NCBI GenBank assembly: GCA_021286645.1
Contig: JAJTBZ010000045.1
Coordinates: 1-50,836, forward strand
Direction: 5' to 3'
DNA: 50,836 nucleotides
Source: Ignavibacteria bacterium
Lineage (GTDB): Bacteria > Bacteroidota > Ignavibacteria > Ignavibacteriales > Ignavibacteriaceae
Below, piece by piece: positions 36,113 to 49,965 of the stretch. How positions within the stretch are numbered: position 1 is the first letter of the stretch; each line of letters begins with the position of its first letter. The translations under genes were made by a program, and so were the position numbers. The notes beneath the pieces are model-generated. The model made no database searches and was not told the DNA's origin. It saw only the letters and a list, made by a program, of their open reading frames with translations.

Positions 36113-37276
36113 TTAACTCTTTTTATAAAAGTTTTCAATTTGTTTGTTTATCTCTGTAAGATCGCTTAATTCAATATACGTTTTGTTTCTGTAGTAGTTT
36201 AAACAGAATAATAATTCCCTGATTTCCGAAAGTTCCACTCCTGTTCTTAATGCAAATTTTTCAGCTTCCATAACCCAAAATTCTTCCGGACGGATGTAGT
36301 ATTTCGACCAAACTGCTTCGAGAAAATACTGAATTTTCATCTTGGCCATTTTCGTGTGCTGTTGTTGGTTATAATACAGACCGGTTAAAGTTTGAGCAAA
36401 TTCCAGTGAATTATTCTTGACCGGCAGGATAGTTGGAATTACCCGTTGCTTGCGCTTGCTATAAAATATTAGCAACAATACAACGGAGGCAAGCATAAGG
36501 TAATATGCTTTTTTCAATGCCCCATTCGATAATACAAATTGCAAAGGCGAACCTTGATAAATTGATTGGGGTTTATGTATTTCATCCCAGAATAAAGTGG
36601 TTGAAGGTGGTAATTCCTTCAACACCCTCCAAATATAATCCCTGTTTTCAGATTGCAGTATTGTATAATTGGTAAAAGCATCGGGGACAAGACATATATA
36701 GAATTCCCCCTCTCCATAATGAGCACGAATAAAATTAACACTATCCTTGTATTGCCTGCCTAATGCATCACACGAATCAGGTGAAAAATGTGCAAACGAA
36801 GTAGAGTAACTACCTATGCTTCTCAGAGTGTATTGCGATTTTACTCCAATAGAATCTGCACGAAGTGTTACATACATCAGTGGAGGAGCGTAAGAAGAGT
36901 CGATTTTCAAATTTAATTGTTTCTGCAACCCTCCCAATTTCCGGGCAGCTATAAATGCTGTATTACCCTTACGGACAAAACTTAGCAGACTATCTAAAAA
37001 CGATTGAGATGGATCATACTCATCAGTAATTGCTAAATAGCACTGCTTTTCCTCATCAATACGACTGAACAATTTCATTTCATTAGTTAGCAGGATTACC
37101 TGCCCCTGATATGTAGCTTGTAACGCGTCAAAGATTATCTTTGAGCCATAAGGTATTTTACTCTCTGCTGTATAATTCTCAGACCAATCTAACTTAGTTT
37201 TGGTTTTTATTGAAAAGCCGAGTAAAAGAAGCAGGATAATTCCGGCTATAATGTATAATTTAGTCCCTTTCATCAC
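36113..37276 (-). CDS. DUF4350 membrane protein
   Basis: A 387-aa protein with an N-terminal helix (about 6-22), a soluble DUF4350-type domain (residues 40-250, with YGSKIIFDALQ and a ThuA-like Rossmann fold pattern), a second helix near 260-275, and a cytoplasmic tail. DUF4350 proteins are regular members of MoxR/DUF58 operons. The start lies 17 nt inside the DUF4129 gene; the second Met (37273) is equally good. Function unknown. Confidence 0.86.
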   Translation of the reverse strand: MMKGTKLYIIAGIILLLLLGFSIKTKTKLDWSENYTAESKIPYGSKIIFDALQATYQGQVILLTNEMKLFSRIDEEKQCYLAITDEYDPSQSFLDSLLSFVRKGNTAFIAARKLGGLQKQLNLKIDSSYAPPLMYVTLRADSIGVKSQYTLRSIGSYSTSFAHFSPDSCDALGRQYKDSVNFIRAHYGEGEFYICLVPDAFTNYTILQSENRDYIWRVLKELPPSTTLFWDEIHKPQSIYQGSPLQFVLSNGALKKAYYLMLASVVLLLIFYSKRKQRVIPTILPVKNNSLEFAQTLTGLYYNQQQHTKMAKMKIQYFLEAVWSKYYIRPEEFWVMEAEKFALRTGVELSEIRELLFCLNYYRNKTYIELSDLTEINKQIENFYKKS

Positions 37277-38000
37277 CGCTGCCCTTCAGAGAACGGTTAA
37301 AAGCCTGGAACTCCCCAAACACAACCTGTAAATGAGAGGTATCTGTATTTACACTTCCATACCATATAACTTCAAATAATTGTGTAAGCTGTGCGAAGAT
37401 AGTTCGAACATTATAATCTTTCAATTCCCGTAGATATTGGTAGTTGGTTTTATCCTGTCCCAATTCAATCAAATGTAATTCATGCAGTATTCTCAATGAC
37501 TTTACATACGAAAAGCGAATTGCTAATCGGAAGTCTTCATTTGATATAGCCTCTTCTATCATTTTATCAAAATCACTCGAACATAAATCCGACTCACGAT
37601 AAGCCATCGAAAGTGAATCTGAACGAGTGGCGGTTGGAGCATACCATTTTATCTTCTTCCGATATACAATATAACCTGCCAACGCTATTGCAATTAGTAA
37701 TACTAAATAGAAAAAATTAGCAATTAGAAAATTTCCAATCTTCGTCTGTAAAAATTTACCCAACGCATGACCAATCCATTCCAACACTATCTCTTGCCAG
37801 GTACGTTTCGCTACAGGATGATAGTTATAATCGGCATTCGCACGATATTGTTCATACCAGGATGAGTCAGGACTGCTTATTTTAGCCGAAACCACATCAG
37901 AATTCGGTTGTTCCTGTGCATAGGAAAAATTACAACCAAAAAAATAAATGATGAAGAGTACAACTATCAATCTGGACAAATTTTTATTCCATACTTTCAA
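37260..38000 (-). CDS. DUF4129 membrane protein
   Basis: A 246-aa protein. It has a signal-like N-terminus (10-28), a membrane helix near 95-112 (FFYLVLLIAIALAGYIVY), and then the DUF4129 domain. That domain contains NEDFRLAIRFSYVKSLRIL near 153-171 and YLRELKD with VIWYGSV. DUF4129 in other bacteria sits next to DUF4350 and MoxR genes. It overlaps the next gene by 17 nt on each side, so translation is coupled. Confidence 0.86.
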   Translation of the reverse strand: MKVWNKNLSRLIVVLFIIYFFGCNFSYAQEQPNSDVVSAKISSPDSSWYEQYRANADYNYHPVAKRTWQEIVLEWIGHALGKFLQTKIGNFLIANFFYLVLLIAIALAGYIVYRKKIKWYAPTATRSDSLSMAYRESDLCSSDFDKMIEEAISNEDFRLAIRFSYVKSLRILHELHLIELGQDKTNYQYLRELKDYNVRTIFAQLTQLFEVIWYGSVNTDTSHLQVVFGEFQAFNRSLKGSGDERD

Positions 38001-38805
38001 TTCGGGTTAACAGGTCCTTCCCTTCTTTCTTTTCAATCAGGCTTCCATAAAAATACCATGTTGATATTATTGCAATTGGCGTGAGAAATAAGGCCATAAA
38101 TTGACTTAAATACACTACAAACTGAAAAACGGAATTATTCGCCGCTAAATCCTTAGTCCCCATTTTTGCAAAAACAGTAATACTAAATATTATTGTGGGA
38201 ATGCTAAGAATAGCCATGGAGATAATGCCGATAACTATTGAGACAATTATTAGCAATCCAAATGCTGCCCACCAATCTCCTTTGATGAGTTTTCGAGTGC
38301 TCTTTAGGGATTCAGTAAGGCTTTCATTTTTATGCCAGCATAATAGCAGAAAATAGGGCGATAAAATTGAAAAATATATCATGGGTACAACCAGCAAAAC
38401 TACCGATACGCAAACAATCAAATAAATAAACAAATAGCTGCGAATAAACCGGGGAGCCATTTGCTTCATCTTTTCAAAAACCAACGTTGTTGAAATCTCT
38501 CCTTCATAGTCTGAATGATATATATCTAATATAGAATAAACAATTATTGAAGATATAAATGCAGGTAGCAAATGAAGAACATAGGAAAGAAAAGATGCTA
38601 AAAAAAAGCCAATTTCATTCGCTTGCTGGAGTTCATTTAATTGAATTGATAGATATGCAGAAACTGCAAAGAACGGCAAAGCGTATATAAAAATGGCCTT
38701 ATATAACGGTTTGTAAATTGCCTTTAATGCTTCAACGGTAATGTTGGTCACTTCAGAGACTGATCTAACTTTATAAAAAACGATTGTTTTTTGCATTTCA
38801 TCCAT
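37984..38805 (-). CDS. Polytopic membrane protein of the MoxR operon
   Basis: A 273-aa protein with about six hydrophobic segments (near 37-55, 65-85, 90-110, 130-160, 175-205 and 225-250). I recognise no domain signature. It lies between SpoIIM (overlap 8 nt) and DUF4129 (overlap 17 nt). Membrane proteins without a name are common in this operon type. It may be a distant relative of the glycerophosphodiester-phosphodiesterase-associated membrane domains, but I could not show this. Confidence 0.78.
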   Translation of the reverse strand: MDEMQKTIVFYKVRSVSEVTNITVEALKAIYKPLYKAIFIYALPFFAVSAYLSIQLNELQQANEIGFFLASFLSYVLHLLPAFISSIIVYSILDIYHSDYEGEISTTLVFEKMKQMAPRFIRSYLFIYLIVCVSVVLLVVPMIYFSILSPYFLLLCWHKNESLTESLKSTRKLIKGDWWAAFGLLIIVSIVIGIISMAILSIPTIIFSITVFAKMGTKDLAANNSVFQFVVYLSQFMALFLTPIAIISTWYFYGSLIEKKEGKDLLTRIESME

Positions 38806-39763
38806 GGTTTTTCTTCTCGGTTATTTTTATTGGATAAATAATTACGTACCAAATTACTATAAATGACATAGAGATAATTAAAAAGATATTCAGCACCAGG
38901 TTCATATTCGTATATCGCGTTATGAATGATTCAATGAATCCTGCAACAATGAAAAGTGGCACAAGACCGATTACAATTTTCACGCCTTCGTTTGCTCCTA
39001 CAATAAAAGAATGCCTGCGACTGTAGGTCCCCGGGATTATAAAGCTTTTACCAAGTAAAAGCCCGGCAGCCCCTGCAATTACAATGGCAGAAAGCTCGAA
39101 CACGCCGTGCAATAATATCGATAACGACGAGCGTAGCAGTAGATTATGGGTGAAGAAAAAATATTGAAAGGCACCAACCATTACACCATTTTGGAAAATA
39201 ATATAAGCCGATCCAAATGAAAAAAAGATACCAAATACGAATGCAATGAACGAAACTTTTATATTATTCAAGGTTATGCCAAGAAACATTGGGAGTTGCT
39301 GTGCATTTTTATACACTGCCATGGGGTCGCCACGTTCAATATTGCTCTGAGTCATCTGGACATATCTCTCGCCTAATATAACTTTTACGAACGTATTGTC
39401 ATACTTACTCGATATCACGCCAATGAAAATGGAAATAGCAAAAATCAGGAAGGACAGTATTATTAATTGACGATGCTTATAGAACAGGCCCGGTAATTCA
39501 AATTTCCAGAAATCTAAAACGGATTGTTTTTGGGGTATATTCTGTTTCTTATAAATAAAGGAATGTGCTTTAACCGATAACGAATTGAGATAATCAATTA
39601 TTTTGCTTCCGGGATAGAAAGTGCGCGCAAATGAAAGATCTTCTGTTATCTGAATAAAAATAGCAGTAAGAATATCAGCATCAACCTCTTCCCTACTGGT
39701 TAAAATACCTTCGTATTCTTTCCATTTATTGGAATTTCGCTTTATGAATACTACTTCCCGCAT
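38798..39763 (-). CDS. SpoIIM-like stage II sporulation protein M homologue
   Basis: A 321-aa membrane protein. The soluble N-terminal region (1-95) is followed by about five helices (105-120, 170-195, 210-240, 260-285, 292-312). The segment GVFELSAIVIAGAAGLLLG near 215-233 is the family's conserved helix. Non-sporulating bacteria carry it in MoxR/RDD operons, and its role there is unknown. It is the first gene of the operon. The 173-nt space to the next operon contains that operon's terminator. Confidence 0.9.
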   Translation of the reverse strand: MREVVFIKRNSNKWKEYEGILTSREEVDADILTAIFIQITEDLSFARTFYPGSKIIDYLNSLSVKAHSFIYKKQNIPQKQSVLDFWKFELPGLFYKHRQLIILSFLIFAISIFIGVISSKYDNTFVKVILGERYVQMTQSNIERGDPMAVYKNAQQLPMFLGITLNNIKVSFIAFVFGIFFSFGSAYIIFQNGVMVGAFQYFFFTHNLLLRSSLSILLHGVFELSAIVIAGAAGLLLGKSFIIPGTYSRRHSFIVGANEGVKIVIGLVPLFIVAGFIESFITRYTNMNLVLNIFLIISMSFIVIWYVIIYPIKITEKKNHG

Positions 39764-39904: not shown

Positions 39905-39938
39905 AGAACAATTGTAAGATAATCCTTACAATTGTTCT
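39905..39938 (-). terminator. Terminator of the PqqD/ATP-grasp operon
   Basis: Perfect 14-bp arms (39905-39918 and 39925-39938) with a 6-nt loop. The right arm overlaps the last two bases of the barrel gene's stop codon (39937-39938). A CTTTTTATA tail follows on the minus strand. It marks the end of the six-gene run. Confidence 0.9.
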
Positions 39939-40803
39939 AAAATTGTAAGTTAGCCTTAACACCAGCAGTGTAATAATTAATATCATAAATTGTAAAGCTG
40001 CTATGCTGGAATCCAAGTTGAAAGATGTACTGCCCAAATAAATAAACTTCCGAGGTTACTCCCCAGTGCCATTTTTGCGTAGCATTTTGGTTGGAAACTG
40101 TCAAAAGCTCCTGGTCAAAATAGTATGCCCTCTCCCCTACAGCAGCAACAATATGAACTACTATTGGTAAATAAATATCCTCAGTTACTTGTACATATCG
40201 CAGGTAGTGAAATTTCAGCTCTGTAGAGAGTAATTTCCTGCCATCTTCAAGTGTCACGAATGATGGATATAATGCTACCGAACTAAAAGGACTGAAAACA
40301 TACAATAGTTTTGCAGTTATTTGGTCGGCAGTCTGATGATCACGCAGACTTATATCTGCTATACCATTAAAATTTGTACGGGTATAGCCCAGTCCAATAT
40401 ACTCCGGATACAGATCCAATCCAATGAAGCCACCAGCTATATTCGTATTATCTGAGTAAGTGAATGGAAACGGGATAGCATCATATTTACCGGTGATATG
40501 CATAAAATAGCCATTCATAAACCATTGATTCTTACTAAATGAAAGTCCCGCTACATAACCTTTCTGGAGGTAGGTATAGTTGGTATCAAAAATAGTTAAG
40601 CGATCATAACCGCAGGTAAGAAATAAACCTTTCGTAACACCTAAAGATAAATAGGCTGAGCCTTCATTAGTGTAATTACCATTACTATACGCTCCTCTTG
40701 TATAATAAATTGAAGGATTAACAAATAAGGAATCACCATAAACCGCAATGCCGGTAAAACAAATGAACATTATAAAAAAGAGTTTCTTCACTAATACACT
40801 CAT
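39937..40803 (-). CDS. Outer-membrane-type beta-barrel protein
   Basis: A 288-aa exported protein. It has a signal peptide (about 1-23) and then alternating aromatic/hydrophobic beta strands throughout. The last residue is Phe (LQF), as in outer-membrane barrels. I could not name the family. Its ATG overlaps the TPR stop by 4 nt (ATGA). It is the last gene of the operon and may form the outer-membrane part of the system. Confidence 0.75.
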   Translation of the reverse strand: MSVLVKKLFFIMFICFTGIAVYGDSLFVNPSIYYTRGAYSNGNYTNEGSAYLSLGVTKGLFLTCGYDRLTIFDTNYTYLQKGYVAGLSFSKNQWFMNGYFMHITGKYDAIPFPFTYSDNTNIAGGFIGLDLYPEYIGLGYTRTNFNGIADISLRDHQTADQITAKLLYVFSPFSSVALYPSFVTLEDGRKLLSTELKFHYLRYVQVTEDIYLPIVVHIVAAVGERAYYFDQELLTVSNQNATQKWHWGVTSEVYLFGQYIFQLGFQHSSFTIYDINYYTAGVKANLQF

Positions 40804-41435
40804 TTAATCAATTTCAAACCAGCTAAAGCAGTTGAATCGTTTGCCGAGACCATAAGGGCATTAGTTAAAAGTTCCTGTGCCTTTTTACCATTTCCCAAAT
40901 AATAGTATGTGTAACCAAGGCTCAGGTTGGGTTCGTAATACCCCGGGTAAGCATTCCATGCTTTTTCAAGATGTTTTTTTGCATTTAAGAAATCAGATGA
41001 ATTTAAATAAATCTGGCCAAGACGAAGATTTGCTAAATATTCATTTGGACTGAGTTTCAGGATCTCAATATAGGTTTTTTGTATTTCGCCCCATTCACCC
41101 TGAGCAGCCATTGGATATGTTGAACCATAAAGAGCCTCAAGGCTTGTTTTATTTATACTGATAGCCGTACTGTAATATTTTCGGGAGTTTTTATAATCCT
41201 TAACAGAATAATACAACCACCCAAGGCGCAAATTATATAAGTATGATCCTTTATTCTCCTCATAAGCTGACTGCAATTCGCTTATTGCCTTTTGATAGTC
41301 ACCTTTTTTCTCAAATTCCAATGAAACATTAAAATGAGCTACTTTAGGTTCAGCTTTGTATGTAAGCAACCGGGCTGAAAATATTCCGAGTACAGAGAAA
41401 ATGATAATAAATCCGGTTATATAAAAACTTTTCAT
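40800..41435 (-). CDS. TPR protein, membrane-anchored
   Basis: A 211-aa protein with one N-terminal hydrophobic anchor (about 5-24) and four to five tetratricopeptide repeats from residue 33 onward. Typical lines are FEKKGDYQKAISELQSAYEE, YNLRLGWLYY, EYLANLRLGQIYLNSSDFLN and LGYTYYYLGNGKKAQELL. It probably holds proteins together in the periplasm. It begins 1 nt after the transporter-peptidase gene and ends in an ATGA overlap with the barrel gene. Confidence 0.9.
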   Translation of the reverse strand: MKSFYITGFIIIFSVLGIFSARLLTYKAEPKVAHFNVSLEFEKKGDYQKAISELQSAYEENKGSYLYNLRLGWLYYSVKDYKNSRKYYSTAISINKTSLEALYGSTYPMAAQGEWGEIQKTYIEILKLSPNEYLANLRLGQIYLNSSDFLNAKKHLEKAWNAYPGYYEPNLSLGYTYYYLGNGKKAQELLTNALMVSANDSTALAGLKLIK

Positions 41436-41436
41436 G

Positions 41437-43578
41437 TTATTTCCTGCCTGTTAAATTTTTAATCGTTATTTTTTTCTTTTTTTCATCTTCAAATTCTATT
41501 GTCTCAATATTCCCGTTTTTATTTATAACCAGAAATCCATTTGACAAGTTTTGTACAAATCCAAAAATACCATTCCCTTTTACGGCAATCGAGGCATTTA
41601 CCCGATATCTTAAACTGCTTTCATCTTGCTCAGAAAAGCTAAATTCCCCCTGAGCGGATATATAGCTTTTAGCAAACAGAAAAAACTGCGATAGAATTTT
41701 ACTAAATGAATACGGGAACATATTGAGAGAATAATCATCTGTCCAATGCAGATTATCAAGAAAACAAAGTGGAATTCTCGGTGCAATTAAAGCGAAATAA
41801 TACAGAGCCGAATTTTTGTTCCCCGAAAAACTTTGTATATAAAAAACATTGGCAGAAGTAAAGATATACGCTATTGAATTCTGATTGGATTTAATAAATA
41901 AATTATTCGTTATATCGACATCTATTTCCCATTCTTCTTCAACTTTCTCGCCATTTGCATTTATAAATTCAAACTGAAGTTTATCTGCATACTTAAAATC
42001 GAACGCTTTCTTAATATTCTTATGGGGTTCAATATTTTTTACTGTCTCCCCTTCCTGTGGATAGCTAAAGGAAGCCAGAGTAAATTTATCATCGTGCTTA
42101 ACAAGATAGTTGGCAAACGGGAATTTGTGAGTTTTCTCACCCAACCTGTCAGTTACCTGGAATTGAAAATGCAGATGCGGTACCGGAGATCTGCCGGAAC
42201 TGCCACAAGCCGCGATGATATCACCTTTTTCTATAGAATCTCCTTCATGTACTTTTATTGTACCATCTGCTAAATGCGAATACGAACTATACAAACCCTG
42301 TTCATGCTCGAGAATAATTGTATTTCCCCAATTCTTTTCAATATTTACGTTACCTACTGAATTATCCGGTATGCCGTCAACCACTCGTACTACTTTCCCA
42401 TCAAGAACAGCTGCGACCGGTATTTTATAGCAATAATAATCTTCAACATCCGATCCTTTTCTTTGATATTCGCATTTATCATCATCTTTTATAATAAAAT
42501 CAAAGGCATGTTTCCAATCACCCTTATGCGTATACTGCCCGTCAAAGCCCTGAGAGACAAACCATTCACCAAAGAATGGCAATTCCGGAAACATAAATTT
42601 AAATTTGCTAAAACGAGCTGTTCTCGATTGATGATAATAGTAATTTTCTTCAGGTGACCCCGGTGAAAAGTATAGTAATACCAATTCCGACTGATCCTGT
42701 CTGAACTTCAGGCTGTATAAAGTGGCTAACACAATAAAATTGAATGGCAAAACAAGAACAGGCAATCCGGTGTACAATAATGCCCTATGGAAAAATCCGG
42801 TAAAAATAATTACGAAAACAGTTGAGATAGTAACCAAGACAATACTTTTGCGACATGGAAGAACCAGGCTTCCTCCTAAAGCAAAGGCAGTAAGGATGGC
42901 GTTAAAGGCTACTGTTAGCGCCAATTGATTGTTGTTTTCCGGCAGTATCCATCCCAATAGTACTTGCGAAAGAATAAATGCGATAATGCTAATAGAAAAC
43001 AACACCCGGGAAAAGAATAATATTGTCAGAGCAAGTAAAATACCCGTAATAATTCCCGGTTGAAATAGTATTAATGCTAATGATTTAAAATACAACTTTA
43101 CCAATGGGGGCAGCCATAAAAACCATTTTTCATCTATGGAATGAATTGATGCTGATTTCATCGTTGAATAATTTGAGAGAAAAATGACAAAAATGAATGC
43201 AGCAATAACAAATGGCAAGCTGAGCCCCGGAAGATTAAAAGCAACGGCCATGTAGTTTTCCAACATGGCGGATAATAAGAATGAAATAAATATGAATACG
43301 AGAATTAACATAAGGAGCAGCATAGAAAGCTGATAATAATACCCGGCAGCTGCCCCTATCAATATTCCATTAAAACCATAAAAACCACTTTCGATTTTAG
43401 ATTTATCAAATTTCAGATACATTGCAACCATATTTGAAATTGTTACTCCCAACAAAGAGAGTAATCCTATTTCCGGACAGACAAAAGTGCCAATTAATGC
43501 CAGAGCACCAACCCATCTTCTGTTGCTGAAAAATATTTGCGCGTAACTAAAAAAGATCGAATCGAAAAGCAGTTTCAT
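41437..43578 (-). CDS. Urea-transporter-fold domain fused to M23 metallopeptidase
   Basis: A 713-aa two-part protein. Residues 1-295 carry the two pseudo-repeats of urea transporters (GFYGFNG at 65-71, NLPGLSLPF at 115-123, with repeat 2 at VAFNAILTAFALGG and GLPVLVLPF, 271-279). The M23 (LytM) part is at about 345-480: H357 and D360 in HAFD, YSHL with H435, and HLHF with H468 and H470. The latter pattern predicts a Zn2+ endopeptidase, usually of peptidoglycan, in the periplasm. Residues 480-713 are of unknown fold. A channel for a small neutral molecule joined to a peptidase is unusual. The gene follows the decarboxylase by 1 nt. Confidence 0.87.
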   Translation of the reverse strand: MKLLFDSIFFSYAQIFFSNRRWVGALALIGTFVCPEIGLLSLLGVTISNMVAMYLKFDKSKIESGFYGFNGILIGAAAGYYYQLSMLLLMLILVFIFISFLLSAMLENYMAVAFNLPGLSLPFVIAAFIFVIFLSNYSTMKSASIHSIDEKWFLWLPPLVKLYFKSLALILFQPGIITGILLALTILFFSRVLFSISIIAFILSQVLLGWILPENNNQLALTVAFNAILTAFALGGSLVLPCRKSIVLVTISTVFVIIFTGFFHRALLYTGLPVLVLPFNFIVLATLYSLKFRQDQSELVLLYFSPGSPEENYYYHQSRTARFSKFKFMFPELPFFGEWFVSQGFDGQYTHKGDWKHAFDFIIKDDDKCEYQRKGSDVEDYYCYKIPVAAVLDGKVVRVVDGIPDNSVGNVNIEKNWGNTIILEHEQGLYSSYSHLADGTIKVHEGDSIEKGDIIAACGSSGRSPVPHLHFQFQVTDRLGEKTHKFPFANYLVKHDDKFTLASFSYPQEGETVKNIEPHKNIKKAFDFKYADKLQFEFINANGEKVEEEWEIDVDITNNLFIKSNQNSIAYIFTSANVFYIQSFSGNKNSALYYFALIAPRIPLCFLDNLHWTDDYSLNMFPYSFSKILSQFFLFAKSYISAQGEFSFSEQDESSLRYRVNASIAVKGNGIFGFVQNLSNGFLVINKNGNIETIEFEDEKKKKITIKNLTGRK

Positions 43579-43579
43579 T

Positions 43580-44935
43580 CTATTTCTTCTGAAATTTTTC
43601 AGGGATTAATTCTTGTTGCATAATATAGTCAAGCGATTCAGCTTTGCGAATCAATTCAACCGAGCCATCGCTCATAATCATAACAATGTTTGGACGAAGC
43701 GTAATGAATTGCATCCACTGCGTAACATCGTAGGCACCCGCGTATTCAATAACAAGTTGGTCACCCCGGTTCAAGGTTGGGAGAATAATACTTTCTCTGA
43801 TACAGTCAATGTTCATACATAGTGGGCCGTAAATTGTAGCTTCCTCGGTATGATAACCTGAATCCTGAGCAACCGAAATTTTATGTTTATACCAAAATCC
43901 GGTAAACAGAATATTAACCCCGGCATCAATAATTATTGCCCGCCTTCCATCCGAAAGACGTTTATTGGCGATAACCGAGGAGATAAGGTAACCGGTGTTA
44001 TCCACAAGTGCTCTGCCTGTCTCTAATATGAGCATCGGCATCTCATCAGGTCTCATCTGAACATCATAAATTCCCGAAGTAATTGCATCGGCATACTGTT
44101 CGATAGAAGGGACCAATTCTTCCGCGGGCAGGTATTGCCCTATAAGAGTATTATGCGAAGCAAACCCACCACCGAGATCAATATATTCCAGTTGTATGTC
44201 GTACTCTTTTTTAATATCCATGAAAAGAGAAGCCAATTTTTTGGCAGCAATCCTATAGGCATCGGCTGTCATCATATATGTACCTATATGGGTATGCAGA
44301 CCGACGAGATTCAAGTTCTTTTGTGCTACGATACGTTTAATCGCGTTCCAGGCCTCACCGTTTTCAAAATTAAACCCGAATCGATCCCATTTCGGATAGA
44401 CTCCGGTATCCATATTTACCCGTATTGCAACATCTGCCGAAATATCTAATTCATTGGTAATATCAATTATATCAAACAGTTCATCAAAATGATCTATATG
44501 AATTTTTGAATTTTCACTGATTGCTTTTTTTAAGGATTGCCTGTTTTTATCCGGGCCATTGAAGATAATTTGATTTCCTTTAATACCGAGTTTACGCGCC
44601 CGATCGTATTCAAATTCAGAAACTACTTCTGCCCAAGACCCTTCACTATGGAACACCGAGCAGACAGCACTTAGGTAATTAGTCTTGTATGACCATGCAA
44701 ATTGTACTTTCGGGTAACGAGTTTTAAAAATCCGTAAAAAGTTTTTTTGATTCTGCCTGATACCAGCTTCAGACATAACAAACAGGGGCGAACCATATTG
44801 TTCGACCAGCCGCTTAACCGGAACGCTGCAAATCTCAGTTTTGGGAGGCGTAAGGGTAGCCGATCCCATTTTATTCATAAGACCGGAATAATTTTTCGTA
44901 ATTACCGGGCGTTCATATTTTTTTTTCAAATCCAT
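43580..44935 (-). CDS. Fold-III PLP-dependent decarboxylase (DAP/ornithine-decarboxylase-like)
   Basis: A 451-aa enzyme with the alanine-racemase-fold barrel and C-terminal beta domain. The PLP Lys is K84 (WSYKTNY). THIGTYM and IDLGGGFAS are the phosphate and glycine-rich motifs. The catalytic Cys region is GPLCMNIDC (C373, D377), whereas the usual form is CExxD, so the Glu is replaced by Met. The N-terminal 30 residues are extra. It resembles diaminopimelate decarboxylase, but the lysine route here seems to be the aminoadipate one and the neighbours are not lysine genes. The substrate is probably a basic or branched amino acid. TAATG overlap links it to the ATP-grasp gene. Confidence 0.87.
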   Translation of the reverse strand: MDLKKKYERPVITKNYSGLMNKMGSATLTPPKTEICSVPVKRLVEQYGSPLFVMSEAGIRQNQKNFLRIFKTRYPKVQFAWSYKTNYLSAVCSVFHSEGSWAEVVSEFEYDRARKLGIKGNQIIFNGPDKNRQSLKKAISENSKIHIDHFDELFDIIDITNELDISADVAIRVNMDTGVYPKWDRFGFNFENGEAWNAIKRIVAQKNLNLVGLHTHIGTYMMTADAYRIAAKKLASLFMDIKKEYDIQLEYIDLGGGFASHNTLIGQYLPAEELVPSIEQYADAITSGIYDVQMRPDEMPMLILETGRALVDNTGYLISSVIANKRLSDGRRAIIIDAGVNILFTGFWYKHKISVAQDSGYHTEEATIYGPLCMNIDCIRESIILPTLNRGDQLVIEYAGAYDVTQWMQFITLRPNIVMIMSDGSVELIRKAESLDYIMQQELIPEKFQKK

Positions 44936-45969
44936 TAAATTTCTCCCATTGTCGTAATTTTTTCGAATACAGACATATCTGTAATAAAATCCCAGGAACC
45001 ACGAATGAAAATCGTACCTATTTTATATGAAGTAAAGGGATCAATATTCTCACTTAAAGCTAAGCGAATGAGGGCTTCCGGCAAATTCTGCCCCGCAGCA
45101 GTTGCCAGATGCACCCACGCCGGGAACCGTGGATTTATTTCCAATAAATAATATTCATTTGTTTCATTCGATTTCATAAACTCTAACTCAAGTCCGCTCT
45201 GCCATTCAGTTTTCTGCATAATTTTATGCGTCAATTCTAACAGAGTACTATCGTTAATTGTTACACCAGCCCAGCCTTTTCCCTTATCGGTAATATAGAG
45301 TTTTTTCATCGGCACCGCTCCGATTGTATTACCTTTTCCATCACCCAGGGCAACAACATTATATTCTGAACCAGCAATATACTCCTGAATAATGATAGGG
45401 AATCCCCATTTCACACGGAGTTTATTGAATCCGGTGATTACCTCCTCGAAATTATTTGCTATATAGGCCTCGTAAAATATTCCCTTCACTACAACCGGGT
45501 AAGTGAAATGTTTCGGAATCGAATACAGATCATTTTGCGAAGTAATGAGAATATTCTTGGGTACTTTTATATCATGTTGAGTGCAAAAGTCGAAAAGCTT
45601 GTCTTTCCCGCGAATCATCAACTGCTCGAATGTAGGTAAAAATGTTTTTATACCTAATTCATTCAACCGGTTTTTCAATTTAACAAAACCAAACAATTCC
45701 GAGTCCAAATTTGGGATGATGAAATCCAGGTGTTCTTTATCATGAATATACTTAATCCTTTCAAACATATTCTCCAAACCACTAGAAGGATATGGGATCA
45801 GATAGTTCTTTTGTGCCAGATTATCCATGTAAATGCCTGGTTCCAGGCTGTCATAAATCAGACCTATCAACTCAGTTTTTATATGTGTCGCTTCCTGAAG
45901 ACTGCGAATAACCGGAACACCCGGCCCCGGATTATCCGTAGCATTGAGTCCTGTCACGCCAATTTTCAT
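44935..45969 (-). CDS. ATP-grasp carboxylate-amine ligase
   Basis: A 344-aa protein. The pre-ATP-grasp Rossmann part is residues 1-110 (IGVTGLNATDNPGPGVPVIRS). The ATP-grasp part has VVVKGIFYEA (lid), PIIIQEYIAGSEYNVVALGD near 190-210, and the metal site LLEINPRFPAW near 275-285. This group activates a carboxylate as acyl phosphate and joins it to an amine. The order PqqD-ligase-decarboxylase suggests ligation of an amine (or amino acid) made by the decarboxylase. The start overlaps the PqqD stop by 4 nt. The substrate is unknown. Confidence 0.9.
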   Translation of the reverse strand: MKIGVTGLNATDNPGPGVPVIRSLQEATHIKTELIGLIYDSLEPGIYMDNLAQKNYLIPYPSSGLENMFERIKYIHDKEHLDFIIPNLDSELFGFVKLKNRLNELGIKTFLPTFEQLMIRGKDKLFDFCTQHDIKVPKNILITSQNDLYSIPKHFTYPVVVKGIFYEAYIANNFEEVITGFNKLRVKWGFPIIIQEYIAGSEYNVVALGDGKGNTIGAVPMKKLYITDKGKGWAGVTINDSTLLELTHKIMQKTEWQSGLELEFMKSNETNEYYLLEINPRFPAWVHLATAAGQNLPEALIRLALSENIDPFTSYKIGTIFIRGSWDFITDMSVFEKITTMGEI

Positions 45970-46217
45970 TGTTCTTCCACCAGTTTATGGAGCTGTAATT
46001 GTGTAATAAAATCATGCAGATCTTTTTGAAGTGTTATTTCATCCACATCATAAGTTTCTATAAGCTTTGTACTTATAGAATCGAGAGATAGCCCCTCCTG
46101 CATTAAACGAATGATCTCCTTACCAATTTGATTCAGGGTAAAAGTCTCGCCAGTACGGGCGAAAAACAGAAATCCCGAATCGCTGATAGCAAGGCTCTCA
46201 GGGATATGATATTTCAT
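45966..46217 (-). CDS. PqqD-like peptide-binding (RRE-type) protein
   Basis: An 83-aa winged-helix protein of the PqqD fold: a short beta hairpin (IPESLAISDSGFLFF), GETFTLNQIGKEIIRLMQEG, and a recognition-helix region ending in LQLHKLVEEQ. The family presents leader peptides to modifying enzymes in ribosomal peptide synthesis. No PqqA, PqqE or any radical-SAM gene is nearby, so this is not a PQQ cluster. It opens the six-gene run and overlaps the ATP-grasp gene (ATGA). No precursor peptide was found. Confidence 0.8.
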   Translation of the reverse strand: MKYHIPESLAISDSGFLFFARTGETFTLNQIGKEIIRLMQEGLSLDSISTKLIETYDVDEITLQKDLHDFITQLQLHKLVEEQ

Positions 46218-46268
46218 TGTAGATATACTTTAATTATACAAAAGGTAATTACTTAATGCCAAACCAGA

Positions 46269-47108
46269 TCATTTAAGAAGTATCATCTTGCGGGTCTCGG
46301 TAAATGAGTCGCCTCGCAATTCATAAAAATAAACACCGGAAGTTTGTTTTATACCATACTCATCCGCACCATCCCACTCAATATTTGTAGTGCCGACAGG
46401 AGCAGATTTATGCAAAAGTGTTTTAATCAGTTTGCCCTGAATATTATATATCCTTAATTGGACATCCTCTACCCGGGATAATGAAAACGAGATTGTTGTG
46501 GAAGGATTAAATGGATTTGGATAGTTTTGCATCAGCTTAAAAGAAGCTGGAATGTTTTTATCTGCAACACCCGATACACCCGTTGAATATACTTCGATAG
46601 TATATGTTGAAAGAGCGGGATAAGGATATTTTGTTACCAGGCACTCAAGCAAACCATCGCCATTAACATCGGCAAGAACTGGATATGCATAAGAATAATT
46701 TGCATCATTTTTTTCAAATAGAACATTTCCAGTTACCAAATCAATTATTTTGAATGATTGCCGATAACTGGTACTGGTACCATAGTAACCAAGTATATAG
46801 AATTCCGTTCTTCCATCATTATTAAGATCAACACTCAATGAATACACACTACCACCGGCCATTTTTTCAGCGGCGTTAAAATTGTATGTATACTGGGGAG
46901 TAAAATTATAGCCTGATGCCATAATTTGTACTTTATTTGAGTCAATATAATACAGCCGTTTTTTCCAGGTTGACCCACTTTTTTCAAAGTCAAGCCACCC
47001 GCTAACCGAATAATAATTTACGGAAGGTGTTGTATAGGTATTTGTCCATTGTGCAAAGGAAACCTTAGCCATGCCCAAAATTATGCTTAAGCATAAAAAC
47101 AATCTCAT
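46269..47108 (-). CDS. T9SS cargo protein with FG-GAP/VCBS-like repeats
   Basis: A 279-aa protein: signal peptide (1-19), beta-rich region with Ca2+-binding-like DxNxDG repeats (DLNNDGRTEF near 112, DVNGDGLLE near 157), and the T9SS sorting module from NYPNPFNPSTTI (about 195) to the basic C-terminus. Such repeats form propellers or adhesin-like domains. It lies 51 nt upstream of the PqqD-like gene on the same strand with no terminator between, so it may be the first gene of the operon or just a neighbour. Confidence 0.87.
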   Translation of the reverse strand: MRLFLCLSIILGMAKVSFAQWTNTYTTPSVNYYSVSGWLDFEKSGSTWKKRLYYIDSNKVQIMASGYNFTPQYTYNFNAAEKMAGGSVYSLSVDLNNDGRTEFYILGYYGTSTSYRQSFKIIDLVTGNVLFEKNDANYSYAYPVLADVNGDGLLECLVTKYPYPALSTYTIEVYSTGVSGVADKNIPASFKLMQNYPNPFNPSTTISFSLSRVEDVQLRIYNIQGKLIKTLLHKSAPVGTTNIEWDGADEYGIKQTSGVYFYELRGDSFTETRKMILLK

Positions 47109-47304: not shown

Positions 47305-49965
47305 TTAGGAACCAAACCAATACGTAAATTTCACCATGAAAATATTATCCGGCTTTTCCCTGAAAAGATCCTGGCCGAATCGTCCGAATACTGAATCATT
47401 ATTCGGGCTGCTGCTTTCCCGGCTTTGAGTCCAAACCAAATACAGTGCAGATCCAGGCCTGTATTCCCAACGGATTACTGCGTTCCCCCGGAAAGAGATA
47501 TAGTCGCCATCAGGGTTATCGATTTGTTTCTCTTTTGCCGGGCCTTTTCCATCAGCATCCAAAATAAAATAGCTTGTTCCATCAGAGTACTTTCCGGTTT
47601 GTAGTACAGATTGCCCGGTGCCATATTCCATAAACTCATACGTTTTTGGCGCTACCAAAGCTTTATAATGTGAATATCTTCCGGAGGTAATAAATGGTTG
47701 GAAATATGCCTGAACACTTAATTCAGGGCTAACAATCCAGTCAAGACGAATATCCGTTGAGAGCGTTTTTTGCATCAGTTGTGCAAATACATATCGCGAA
47801 TTATAGGTTTCCGTTGCAGTTTGGTCCGAATACCGTGTAACCCATTGTGCATTTAAATCATTAATTTGATAATCCGGAGCAACATTTAATGTTAATGTAG
47901 GTGTAAGCTTAAATTCAATTCCGAGTGAATAATCCTGATACTTGCCATCTTTCCCAAACCGCAGGTAAAAACTTGGATTGATTACATACCAGGTTCGGTT
48001 GTTCGTATAATAATAGGCACCAAAACCCTGGCTCGCTGGATTAATGGTCAGGGGGCCTCCACGGGTTTTCCGGGCATTATAGGTCTCATCAGTTATGTTT
48101 ACATTATAACCCATACCGGATAAATCATGTAAATTCATCCAGCCACCTGTGTAAATACCTTCAATGGTTTTATTTCCACCGAAATCCATTCCGGTAAACG
48201 CGGCGATTGAAACACCACAGTTCTGATAAAAATCAGTTGGCTGCGCCCATTTATACCCCGTTGAAATGTGCATATTTATGTAGTCACTATAGGAGTTATA
48301 ACCTAAATCATTATTTTCAAAACCCGGACTGATCGCGCCGATAGCCGCATTAAGCGACCATTCACCCCGGTTTTTATTCAGCACAATTCTACCGGCATAA
48401 CCACTTAAAGATGTGGCCTGGCTGTCAACGCTTAGATGCGATGCATCCGGGCGTTGAAAGTAATGCAAACTGCTTCGTTGAACAGCCAGGATTTGTTCTT
48501 TAGATCCGCTTATGCGGGACCCGGCCGCCCACCCGGTAACCACATAGGTACCGTCATTATCAAGATTCGTCCACCCGTCAACTCCTGCAACGACAGCATT
48601 CTTATTAAGTTCATCGTTTAATGAAGCATCCTTAAAGAACCGATTCGTATAGGTACCCAGAAAACCCAATCCCTTTTTCCCTTCATCAAATTGTTTCTGT
48701 GCCCGTACTACACCATAATATGTTGCCGGCTCAATTTCCAGAGTTGATTTTTCATCGTTCGTAGAAAAATCGCCGTATTCCCTTTTTGTTAGCGCGTGCA
48801 CCATGCCAATTTTCCAACCATCGAGAATTTCGCCAACTATTTTTCCCGCTCCAAGTATATGGGTTCCTTTCGGAACATCGGCATAATCGGCACTTACCGA
48901 TCTTTGTGGTGAACGGCCTATTCTGCGGGTATAAAAAATACTAGGGTTATTCCAATTATAGTTTTCCCAATTATTGATTCCGCCTCTTCCAAACCTGAAA
49001 ATTGTCAGGCCCTCGGTAAAGAACGGTCGTTTCTCTTGAAATGTATATTCAACATCAGTAAGATTCAAAACAGCAGGATCGACTTCAACCTGCCCAAAAT
49101 CGGGATTAATTGTGGCGTTTAATTTTAATCTGTTACCCACAGGAGTTTTCAGGTCCAGCCCGAGGCCCGGCGTAAAAGTCTGTGATTTAAATGGGTCACC
49201 TGCACTCTTGTTCAATATTTCCGCTTTACCTGTAACATATGGCAATAACTCAATCCCCGTGCCTGATTTAATACCTTGAATACCTGTTAGCGTAGGGAAC
49301 CGGGATGCGAAACCACTTTCATTTCGTGGTGTATAGGCTACCATATCCGTTTCGGCATTTCTGCTAAAATATCGCTCAATATCAAATCCCCATTCCTGGT
49401 AATCCGACGCCTGAAATCGCAGTTGTGAAAGAGGGATCTTCATTTCGACATAATAACCATCCTCATGTATTTGTACTTTACCTTCCCATACGCCATCCCA
49501 AGTCAAATCAGTTTCTTTATTATCATTATCAAAGGTTCCATCAGCAAGCGTGCCGGCTGAAGATACGTAAAACAAATATCCGCCTCTTCTGTCATGATAC
49601 GTGTCTAAATATAACAACAATCCATCTGATGGATCGCCAAACACAAAATCCCTGCGAACCAGACGAGCCAGAATTGAATCAGGGTGGGTATCGTAGCACT
49701 TCGCGGCAAAATATATATTCTCATCATCATACGCGAACCATACCTCGGTATGTTGGCTGGGCTTTTCACCCTGTCTGGGTTCCTGCTGATATAAATCCGA
49801 GTAGGAAGGTCCCTTCCAGACTCCTTCGTTTAAATTACCGTCTATAGTAATTTTCTCATGTACACGAACACACTGAAATGATTTGGCGGCGGTATTCCCC
49901 TGATCCGCTGCAATGGTCTTCACTATCAGGAATGTCAAAATGAAAAGTAAAAGATTTAATCTCAC
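47305..49965 (-). CDS. DUF5916 outer-membrane-type protein with CBM9-like N-domain
   Basis: An 886-aa exported protein with a signal peptide (1-19). Residues 35-210 form a CBM9-like beta-sandwich (TEVWFAYDDENIYFAAKCYD). The DUF5916 part follows, from about 240 to the end, with long amphipathic strands that look like a large outer-membrane barrel, ending in Ser after an aromatic (YWFGS). The family occurs in Bacteroidota and relatives and has no firm function; a sugar-binding or transport role has been suggested by the CBM9-like part. It has its own terminator and stands alone. Confidence 0.9.
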   Translation of the reverse strand: MRLNLLLFILTFLIVKTIAADQGNTAAKSFQCVRVHEKITIDGNLNEGVWKGPSYSDLYQQEPRQGEKPSQHTEVWFAYDDENIYFAAKCYDTHPDSILARLVRRDFVFGDPSDGLLLYLDTYHDRRGGYLFYVSSAGTLADGTFDNDNKETDLTWDGVWEGKVQIHEDGYYVEMKIPLSQLRFQASDYQEWGFDIERYFSRNAETDMVAYTPRNESGFASRFPTLTGIQGIKSGTGIELLPYVTGKAEILNKSAGDPFKSQTFTPGLGLDLKTPVGNRLKLNATINPDFGQVEVDPAVLNLTDVEYTFQEKRPFFTEGLTIFRFGRGGINNWENYNWNNPSIFYTRRIGRSPQRSVSADYADVPKGTHILGAGKIVGEILDGWKIGMVHALTKREYGDFSTNDEKSTLEIEPATYYGVVRAQKQFDEGKKGLGFLGTYTNRFFKDASLNDELNKNAVVAGVDGWTNLDNDGTYVVTGWAAGSRISGSKEQILAVQRSSLHYFQRPDASHLSVDSQATSLSGYAGRIVLNKNRGEWSLNAAIGAISPGFENNDLGYNSYSDYINMHISTGYKWAQPTDFYQNCGVSIAAFTGMDFGGNKTIEGIYTGGWMNLHDLSGMGYNVNITDETYNARKTRGGPLTINPASQGFGAYYYTNNRTWYVINPSFYLRFGKDGKYQDYSLGIEFKLTPTLTLNVAPDYQINDLNAQWVTRYSDQTATETYNSRYVFAQLMQKTLSTDIRLDWIVSPELSVQAYFQPFITSGRYSHYKALVAPKTYEFMEYGTGQSVLQTGKYSDGTSYFILDADGKGPAKEKQIDNPDGDYISFRGNAVIRWEYRPGSALYLVWTQSRESSSPNNDSVFGRFGQDLFREKPDNIFMVKFTYWFGS

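Follow-up and report, generated by a model that had tools for sequence, protein, structure and literature searches.

A conserved six-gene operon in which a PqqD-type protein may recognize the N-terminal tail of a decarboxylase

What does a PqqD-type peptide binder bind when no precursor peptide lies beside it? The question is raised by an operon in the 50,836-nucleotide stretch analyzed here (the window), contig JAJTBZ010000045.1 of the Ignavibacteria bacterium assembly GCA_021286645.1. The minus strand holds six genes, running from 46217 to 39937, which encode in this order a PqqD-type protein, an ATP-grasp ligase, a pyridoxal phosphate (PLP) fold-III decarboxylase, a fusion of a urea transporter (UT) domain with an M23 peptidase domain (UT-M23), a tetratricopeptide repeat (TPR) protein and a beta-barrel protein. 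Here, we find that the six genes are conserved as a set, and sequence patterns suggest that the part of the "missing precursor peptide" is probably played by the N-terminal tail of the decarboxylase. PqqD-type proteins are discussed below as recognition elements (RREs) of ribosomally synthesized and posttranslationally modified peptides (RiPPs).

The genes are as follows.

45966..46217, minus strand: PqqD-type RRE protein, 83 aa (PF05402 at 6e-13; best NCBIfam match lasso_PqqD_Strm at 3.4e-10, below cut-off)
44935..45969, minus strand: ATP-grasp ligase, 344 aa (Pfam ATPgrasp_Ter at 3e-12)
43580..44935, minus strand: PLP fold-III decarboxylase, 451 aa (Orn_Arg_deC_N at 9e-31; nearest to FigC and diaminopimelate [DAP] decarboxylases)
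41437..43578, minus strand: UT-M23 protein, 713 aa (Pfam UT, PF03253, at 4.8e-46 and Peptidase_M23 at 2e-16)
40800..41435, minus strand: TPR protein, 211 aa (Pfam TPR), with an N-terminal hydrophobic segment at residues 1-27
39937..40803, minus strand: beta-barrel protein, 288 aa (no Pfam match), with a signal-like N terminus at residues 1-23

The six genes form a conserved unit

All six open reading frames (ORFs) occur on the minus strand, packed as tightly as the initial annotation had described, the junctions from PqqD to barrel being a 4-nt overlap, a 1-nt overlap, two 1-nt gaps and a 4-nt overlap. We compared two samples of loci: 22 loci from 21 genomes having ATP-grasp relatives, and 80 loci found through UT-M23, which are the best 80 of 557 and hence biased to near relatives. 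The latter come from Ignavibacteria, Bacteroidetes, Chlorobiota and one Marinimicrobia, mostly as metagenome-assembled genomes (MAGs). Before gene content was counted, we removed six loci that were duplicates or near copies. The complete set was present in 63 of the 65 loci with enough flanking sequence. Among the UT-M23-found loci, the genes for PqqD, ATP-grasp and decarboxylase stand together in 54 of the 56 with room upstream (the exceptions are L088, which stops at a contig edge, and L090, which has no such trio), and those for TPR and barrel in all 58 with room downstream. Because 63 of 65 loci hold all six genes, the arrangement exceeds chance and the genes form a conserved, coherent unit; the co-occurrence on which the idea of a six-gene system depended holds in other genomes.

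Gene order shifts and the set stays: the barrel or the TPR gene has moved in L026, L056, L096, L108 and L119. The pairwise distances of four gene trees (PqqD, ATP-grasp, decarboxylase and UT-M23; 74 rows) correlate at 0.80 to 0.91, which in part reflects common species history. Within a sample of 247 genomes of the phylum, PF03253 occurs in 28, namely, the 22 with an ATP-grasp relative and six with a stand-alone UT. The decarboxylase is found in 32 of 394 genomes of a later sample overlapping the 247, and occurrence in a sample of the phylum of genome G251 is 16/149. We sought a common theme among the genes inserted in single loci and found none. An initiation factor 2B (IF-2B)-family gene (PF01008) lies between the decarboxylase and UT-M23 genes in three loci (L072:9006-9923, L086:8989-9897 and L075:9129-9962) and might encode an additional pathway enzyme. 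One 3.74-Mb contig, G124:C1, has the same operon match at both ends (L043 and L046), one copy having an intact UT-M23 frame and the other a broken one; this is probably the overlap of an unclosed circle.

The PqqD-type protein and the decarboxylase tail

The PqqD-type protein matches PF05402 above the gathering score and no other Pfam family, and is not an acyl carrier protein; the lasso-specific NCBIfam RRE models match it only below their cut-offs. Discrete RREs of lasso peptide systems target the motif [Y/W]xxPx[L/V/I/F/A] (PMC13381572), and a YxxP leader motif is likewise described in PMC12710340. In the RRE LppB, D70 forms a hydrogen bond with the leader Tyr, N33 fixes a kink and F74 packs on the Pro (PMC13381572). 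The window protein has N29, D66 and F70 at a spacing identical to that of these three residues, a comparison made by spacing, LppB itself not being aligned. N29 is found in 101 of 101 loci and F70 in 98.

A possible target lies on the decarboxylase, whose first ~30 residues do not align to the structures of FigC and DAP decarboxylase:

44846..44935, minus strand: leader-like N-terminal tail of the decarboxylase, residues 1-30, with the motif YERPVI at 44900-44917 and Lys22 at 44870-44872

Of the decarboxylases 440 aa or longer, 85 of 85 carry the leader motif [YF]xxPx[LIVM] in the tail. Only 17 of 823 other mechanically called ORFs of at least 250 aa carry it within their first 30 residues, none of them with Glu or Asp at position 2, and the LysA of the same genome does not have it. 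A tail Lys (Lys22 in the window protein) is present in 102/102 sequences and stands 15 residues past the first residue of the motif in all but one. A stricter tail pattern retrieved 82 of 16,187 ORFs, all of them decarboxylases (77 marked as such by script and five by place and sequence).

The first motif residue, Tyr or Phe, covaries with PqqD residue 66. The count covers 101 loci and leaves out eight repeats or near copies, loci missing one of the three proteins, and L188, a Phe motif with Tyr at residue 66 that was dropped by the pattern used. In the 71 Tyr-type loci, residue 66 is always Asp (69) or Asn (2). In the 30 Phe-type loci it is never either, being Tyr in 26, Ser in 2, His in 1 and Phe in 1. 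Two measures place this pair first out of 30,030 column pairs (102 rows); the second-ranked pair by one measure involves the tail residue beside the Lys. On the ATP-grasp tree, the motif state and residue 66 each change three times, and the two supported independent pairs of changes are both concordant. A divergent operon set in the sample of G251's phylum (L189-L196) has the tail Y-x-K-P-[TI]-I and is Tyr-type with Asp66.

Judging from these patterns, the PqqD-type protein very probably binds the decarboxylase tail. It had earlier been supposed that an amine is coupled to a carrier or a separate peptide; given the motif in 85/85 decarboxylases and the covariation at residue 66, the tail is most likely the partner of the PqqD-type protein instead. 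The earlier remark that no precursor peptide is visible stands within the loci, to which our searches were confined, the rest of the genomes lying outside them. A comparison of 1179 short ORFs from 89 loci for a shared precursor gave one two-locus cluster only, and the tail pattern revealed no free RiPP precursor among the locus ORFs, being confined to decarboxylases.

Could the tail itself be the product? In an unusual RiPP of this kind, leader and core would be fused to an enzyme, the ATP-grasp protein would modify residues of the tail, and the M23 domain would cut it to release a short modified peptide. Such a scheme would account for a leader motif followed, at near-constant spacing, by a conserved segment ending in K-[FYI]-G, and for an operon holding an RRE, an ATP-grasp protein and a protease-type domain with no other precursor found in the loci. 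RiPP cores are variable, however, whereas the segment past the motif is fixed (G in 93, K in 100 and G in 99 of 100 rows), and one enzyme would be sacrificed per product. The ATP-grasp protein, moreover, is nearest to carbamoyl-phosphate-synthase-like families and scores 12.8 bits with the grasp-with-spasm maturase model, whose cut-off is 230. We regard this explanation as unlikely.

Ligase and decarboxylase chemistry

The residues compared in the two enzymes are conserved: K122, K162, E202, N204, E263, E277, N279 and R281 of the ATP-grasp protein and K84, C373, M374, I376 and Q406 of the decarboxylase are each found in 16/16 aligned sequences. With an amide-forming ligase family beside a decarboxylase, the description of the first three genes as a small biosynthesis kit for an amide is supported. 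The nearest structure to the decarboxylase is FigC, whose clade has members that act on modified amino acids (PMC7857480). The residue beside the catalytic Cys is acidic in ornithine, arginine and DAP decarboxylases (ODC, ADC and DAPDC) and is Met in FigC (PMC7857480); Met374, at this place in our family, is invariant. The decarboxylases also keep FigC T327, Y331 (15/16) and Y383. T330 is replaced by Trp, and the citrate contacts H357 and R387 by Ile and Gln in 16/16. Because Met374 is kept as in FigC while the citrate contacts are replaced, the substrate probably combines a free alpha-amino acid end with a neutral side-chain extension, on which the ligase would supply the amide.

The butirosin genes run in the order small protein, ATP-grasp, decarboxylase, with BtrJ in the role of the ATP-grasp ligase, and the same order is seen here. 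By a butirosin-like carrier logic, the ligase would attach an amino acid, by the carboxylate of its side chain, to an amine of a carrier, for which the Lys22 present in every tail is a candidate; decarboxylation would take place on the tethered substrate, and the M23 domain would release it. BtrK belongs to FigC's clade and acts on glutamyl-BtrI (PMC7857480), and it is a PDB relative of our decarboxylase at 1.1e-41. Yet an RRE stands here in the place of an acyl carrier protein, and Lys22 may serve binding alone. This explanation seems to us rather unlikely.

The membrane and envelope proteins

In the docking scheme, the remaining three proteins would handle the product. The largest of them divides as follows.

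42706-43578, minus strand: UT channel, UT-M23 residues 1-291
42064-42606, minus strand: M23 domain, UT-M23 residues 325-505
minus strand: C-terminal beta-rich domain, UT-M23 residues 506-713

The predicted structure of UT-M23 (predicted local distance difference test [pLDDT] 90.6) matches UT channels at Z ~36, with 303-310 residues aligned at a root-mean-square deviation of 2.2-2.6, and M23 domains at Z ~14. The selectivity filter differs from that of the transporter dvUT, whose residues are named Q24, T130, E187 and T294 (PMC4357013). Among 37 proteins, the Q24 position is Gln in 35, the T130 position Ser in 35 and Thr in 2, and the T294 position Ser in 22, Val in 13 and Ala in 2. The E187 position is Ala in 22, Leu in 10, Ser in 2 and otherwise Val, Tyr or Phe, never acidic or amide. 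Hence, the family has the profile and fold of UT channels and lacks the So-site Glu/Gln and the full pair of Sm Thr of their filter.

Several observations bear on the side of the membrane where the M23 domain lies. In UT-A1, an intracellular loop joins the two UT domains (PMC12171576), and both termini of a UT domain appear, by analogy, to be inside the cell. Averaged over 37 proteins, the predicted inner loop set holds 6.0 K+R and 1.3 D+E, and the outer set 2.4 and 6.6, with loop limits that we set from the model and UT topology. In L034, the sole split case seen, the M23 part is a separate protein with no signal peptide or transmembrane segment (a sample of its family, one other genome, had no match). 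Because of the positive-inside pattern and this signal-less protein, the domain is quite probably cytosolic rather than periplasmic. It may be catalytically active, since H351, D360, H435, H468 and H470 are found in 37/37, H351 presumably being the first zinc ligand. The initial assignment of the last three proteins to inner membrane, periplasm and outer membrane is supported for the inner-membrane channel and is consistent with the signal-like N termini of the TPR and barrel proteins; the M23 domain is the part that probably does not fit.

Relatives also occur on plasmids, and we inspected six of 74 matching records. Four of the six (Thermus, Thermomicrobium and two haloarchaea) share a special M23 whose N terminus carries hydrophobic segments and, after them, basic residues; those of Tardiphaga and Acaryochloris do not. 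The plasmids of Thermus, Thermomicrobium and haloarchaea carry an M23 family (L141-L144) that is membrane anchored and has its first His shifted (SHSW...QRYA[YL]D). The Thermomicrobium member is adjacent to a major facilitator superfamily (MFS) gene, and the one in Haladaptatus lies close to nitrile hydratase. Haloarchaea have no murein.

The TPR and barrel proteins vary in form between lineages. In Bacteroidia loci, a protein of ~380-520 aa occupies the place of the barrel; the C-terminal half of this protein and the barrel of the window are homologues (hhalign probability 97.4, E 1.5e-11). The AlphaFold2 model of one such relative (pLDDT 91.7) shows 14 strands along with TPR-like helices at its N terminus, and TPR_1 is matched in 22 of 29 Bacteroidia TPR-barrel members. 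Because this protein holds TPR-like helices and a homologous barrel, the window lineage and Bacteroidia have the same part list. The closest structures to the barrel are TodX, FadL, CymA and OmpG (Z 18-21), with Bacteroidota chains of the barrel assembly machinery (BAM) and the type IX secretion system (T9SS) at Z 17-19. The combination of TPR and 14 strands raised the possibility of a Slam-like barrel, which was set aside on these best structure matches.

Both channels look passive, the barrel being of the TodX/FadL/CymA/OmpG kind and the inner one having the UT fold, and the M23 domain is predicted to be cytosolic. They could therefore serve uptake or salvage, admitting a small amide or peptide fragment that the M23 domain would cleave and the decarboxylase and ligase reprocess. 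A dedicated ligase and decarboxylase fit synthesis better, and among the 30 neighbor clusters listed, inspected visually rather than by a family search, none looked to us like amide catabolism. We find such a role quite unlikely. Urea is in any case an unlikely solute of UT-M23, because the filter is altered and the urease link is absent: urease alpha occurs in 9/247 genomes, among them 1/22 operon genomes versus 4/6 with a stand-alone UT. For all the PF03253 match, ordinary urea uptake with passenger genes is highly improbable in a conserved gene set whose E187 position is altered in 37/37. A rhizoferrin-type siderophore pathway is scarcely credible: the closest characterized decarboxylase is indeed an N-citrylornithine decarboxylase, but our protein scores 249.5 bits with the FslC model (cut-off 500), has lost H357 and R387 in 16/16, and stands in a set of six proteins without a Pfam or NCBIfam match to the nonribosomal peptide synthetase-independent siderophore (NIS) synthetase or TonB receptor families.

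A proposed pathway and its weight

We are left with the reading that opened this article, a conserved amide-amine synthesis-and-handling unit with PqqD-decarboxylase docking, for which we see the case for and against as evenly balanced. In this scheme, the PqqD-type RRE would grip the [YF]ExPx[IL] leader-like tail and so dock the decarboxylase, presumably on the ATP-grasp ligase. The ligase would form an amide, and the decarboxylase, going by its family and active-site residues, would strip the alpha-carboxylate from an amino acid with a neutral side-chain group, giving an amine-bearing amide. The predicted cytosolic M23 domain may then trim or release the product at the mouth of the urea-type channel, and the TPR protein and 14-stranded outer-membrane channel could complete a route across the envelope for a solute and in a direction that we can only propose; the direction of transport could be reversed.

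Several points weigh against this scheme. With ATP-grasp relatives at E 1e-20 in 22/247 sampled phylum genomes, the set is accessory. It is also incomplete in places: L034 has no TPR and barrel genes nearby and L045 no TPR gene, and the genomes of L090 and L117, MAGs of unknown completeness, have UT-M23 and no ATP-grasp relative at E 1e-20. (Four genomes were queried; that of L114 has such a relative on a different contig and that of the control, L085, has one.) The covariation, too, comes from three Tyr/Phe switches on the best tree, two of them supported, so few independent switches that a sign test cannot reach 0.05. An M23 enzyme in the cytosol would be unusual, and the never-acidic E187 position complicates the identity of the solute. 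Finally, UT pores narrow to ~2-3 angstrom (PMC10541013), and by analogy the pore would be too narrow for a large amide.

A more daring version, which we consider improbable, takes the RRE to have departed from RiPP biosynthesis and to serve as an enzyme adaptor, reading a leader permanently fused to the decarboxylase, with Lys22 as a self-carrier loaded by the ligase, decarboxylation in cis and a cytosolic M23 amidase releasing the product into the pore of the urea-type channel. If this were true, an amine-export pathway not yet described would be present in many of the phylum's bacteria. If the docking reading itself is right, RREs would not be confined to RiPPs, and a leader-reader pair could join metabolic enzymes, so that orphan PqqD proteins would be read differently in genome mining. 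It would also suggest a concrete role for UT-M23 fusions and the existence of cytosol-facing M23 domains, and would point to a metabolite of an unfamiliar kind in many largely uncultured bacteria.

Upstream genes and the rest of the window

Three further features flank the operon.

46269..47108, minus strand: FG-GAP protein, 279 aa, upstream of PqqD and with a C-terminal signal of the T9SS type
46233..46262, minus strand: promoter-like site TTGGCA-18-TATAAT, a consensus match only
39905..39938, minus strand: terminator-like hairpin, a 15-bp stem then TTTTATATAC, with a T-rich tail, 3' of the barrel gene

Our scan gave 8 terminator-like sites versus 5.9 expected, a count that is not significant alone, and 28 promoter-like sites versus 34.9 expected in shuffles. 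A same-strand gene lies close upstream of the operon in 46 of the 68 loci with upstream room, and T9SS C-terminal signals were found in 18/46 of these neighbors versus 4/60 controls. In 17 of the 68 loci, in the window's part of the tree, the gene directly upstream of PqqD is a homologue of the window's FG-GAP gene. SprA is present in 22/22 operon genomes, yet in 190/247 overall. We rejected a general link of the operon to type IX secretion, SprA being common; because those 17 genes are all homologous to the FG-GAP gene of a single lineage, we read the association as lineage-specific. In the lineage of the window, the unit often includes one more gene at its upstream end, of T9SS type. Upstream genes also include AraC-type regulators (7/46) and response regulators (4/46), which suggests regulated expression.

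Downstream of the operon (36113-39763) is a row of DUF4350, DUF4129-like, glycerophosphodiester phosphodiesterase (GPDPase)-membrane-like and SpoIIM genes, the DUF4129-like and GPDPase-membrane-like matches being below the gathering score. On the other side, 47305-49965 encodes a DUF5916 protein with a CBM9-like N terminus.

Comparison with known systems

Is the operon a named pathway in disguise? PQQ (pyrroloquinoline quinone) biosynthesis was rejected, since PqqD scores 22.3 bits with the PQQ equivalog (cut-off 46), as was LysA identity, since the decarboxylase scores 235.5 bits with the LysA equivalog (cut-off 297.9) and another gene of the genome scores 482. Known antiphage defense was also set aside, the PADLOC models giving 0 families for the six proteins at E 0.001. 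These scores below cut-offs, the replaced citrate contacts and the lack of a precursor in the loci agree with the initial view that the set is not PQQ, siderophore or recognized RiPP chemistry. No named pathway was matched. The operon partly resembles lasso RREs in recognition, FigC in decarboxylation and BtrJ/BtrK in pairing a ligase with a decarboxylase, yet lacks a defining feature of each of these families; in the open-access literature, as far as excerpts of it go, we found neither this operon nor an RRE bound to an enzyme tail.

Lasso RREs (B1), with LppB-LppA as an example, share with our protein the PqqD fold, a [Y/F]xxPx[I/L/V] target and N, D and F at the spacing of LppB N33, D70 and F74. 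Here, unlike there, the target is on an enzyme N terminus, no short precursor is found in the loci, and Pfam and NCBIfam reveal no lasso cyclase or leader peptidase family among the six operon proteins. The channel has the full fold of the UT family (dvUT, SLC14; Z ~36 over ~305 residues), with the Gln and the first filter hydroxyl mostly kept, and differs in the lost outer-site Glu, the change of the second filter Thr to Ser, Val or Ala, the M23 fusion and the missing urease link. M23/LytM metallopeptidases share the fold (Z ~14) and the conserved H, D, H and HxH; ours is predicted to be cytosolic, and haloarchaea have relatives that carry hydrophobic segments at the N terminus.

The likenesses extend to the chemistry. 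FigC/FslC of the rhizoferrin pathway are the nearest characterized decarboxylases, with the same Met beside the Cys and the same Thr and Tyr (Tyr in 15/16) of the specificity helix; Ile and Gln in place of the citrate His and Arg, an ATP-grasp protein in place of an NIS synthetase, and the leader-like tail set ours apart. In E-64 biosynthesis, a decarboxylated amino acid supplies the amine (PMC12568646). The E-64 and dapdiamide pathways also use a free-standing ATP-grasp ligase; they differ in a separate second ligase, and the excerpt of that paper mentions no RRE or channel proteins (PMC12568646). Lastly, butirosin BtrI-BtrJ-BtrK place a small protein, an ATP-grasp ligase and a decarboxylase of the alanine racemase (AR) fold in series, as does our operon, in which a PqqD-type RRE replaces the acyl carrier protein and membrane and envelope genes are added.

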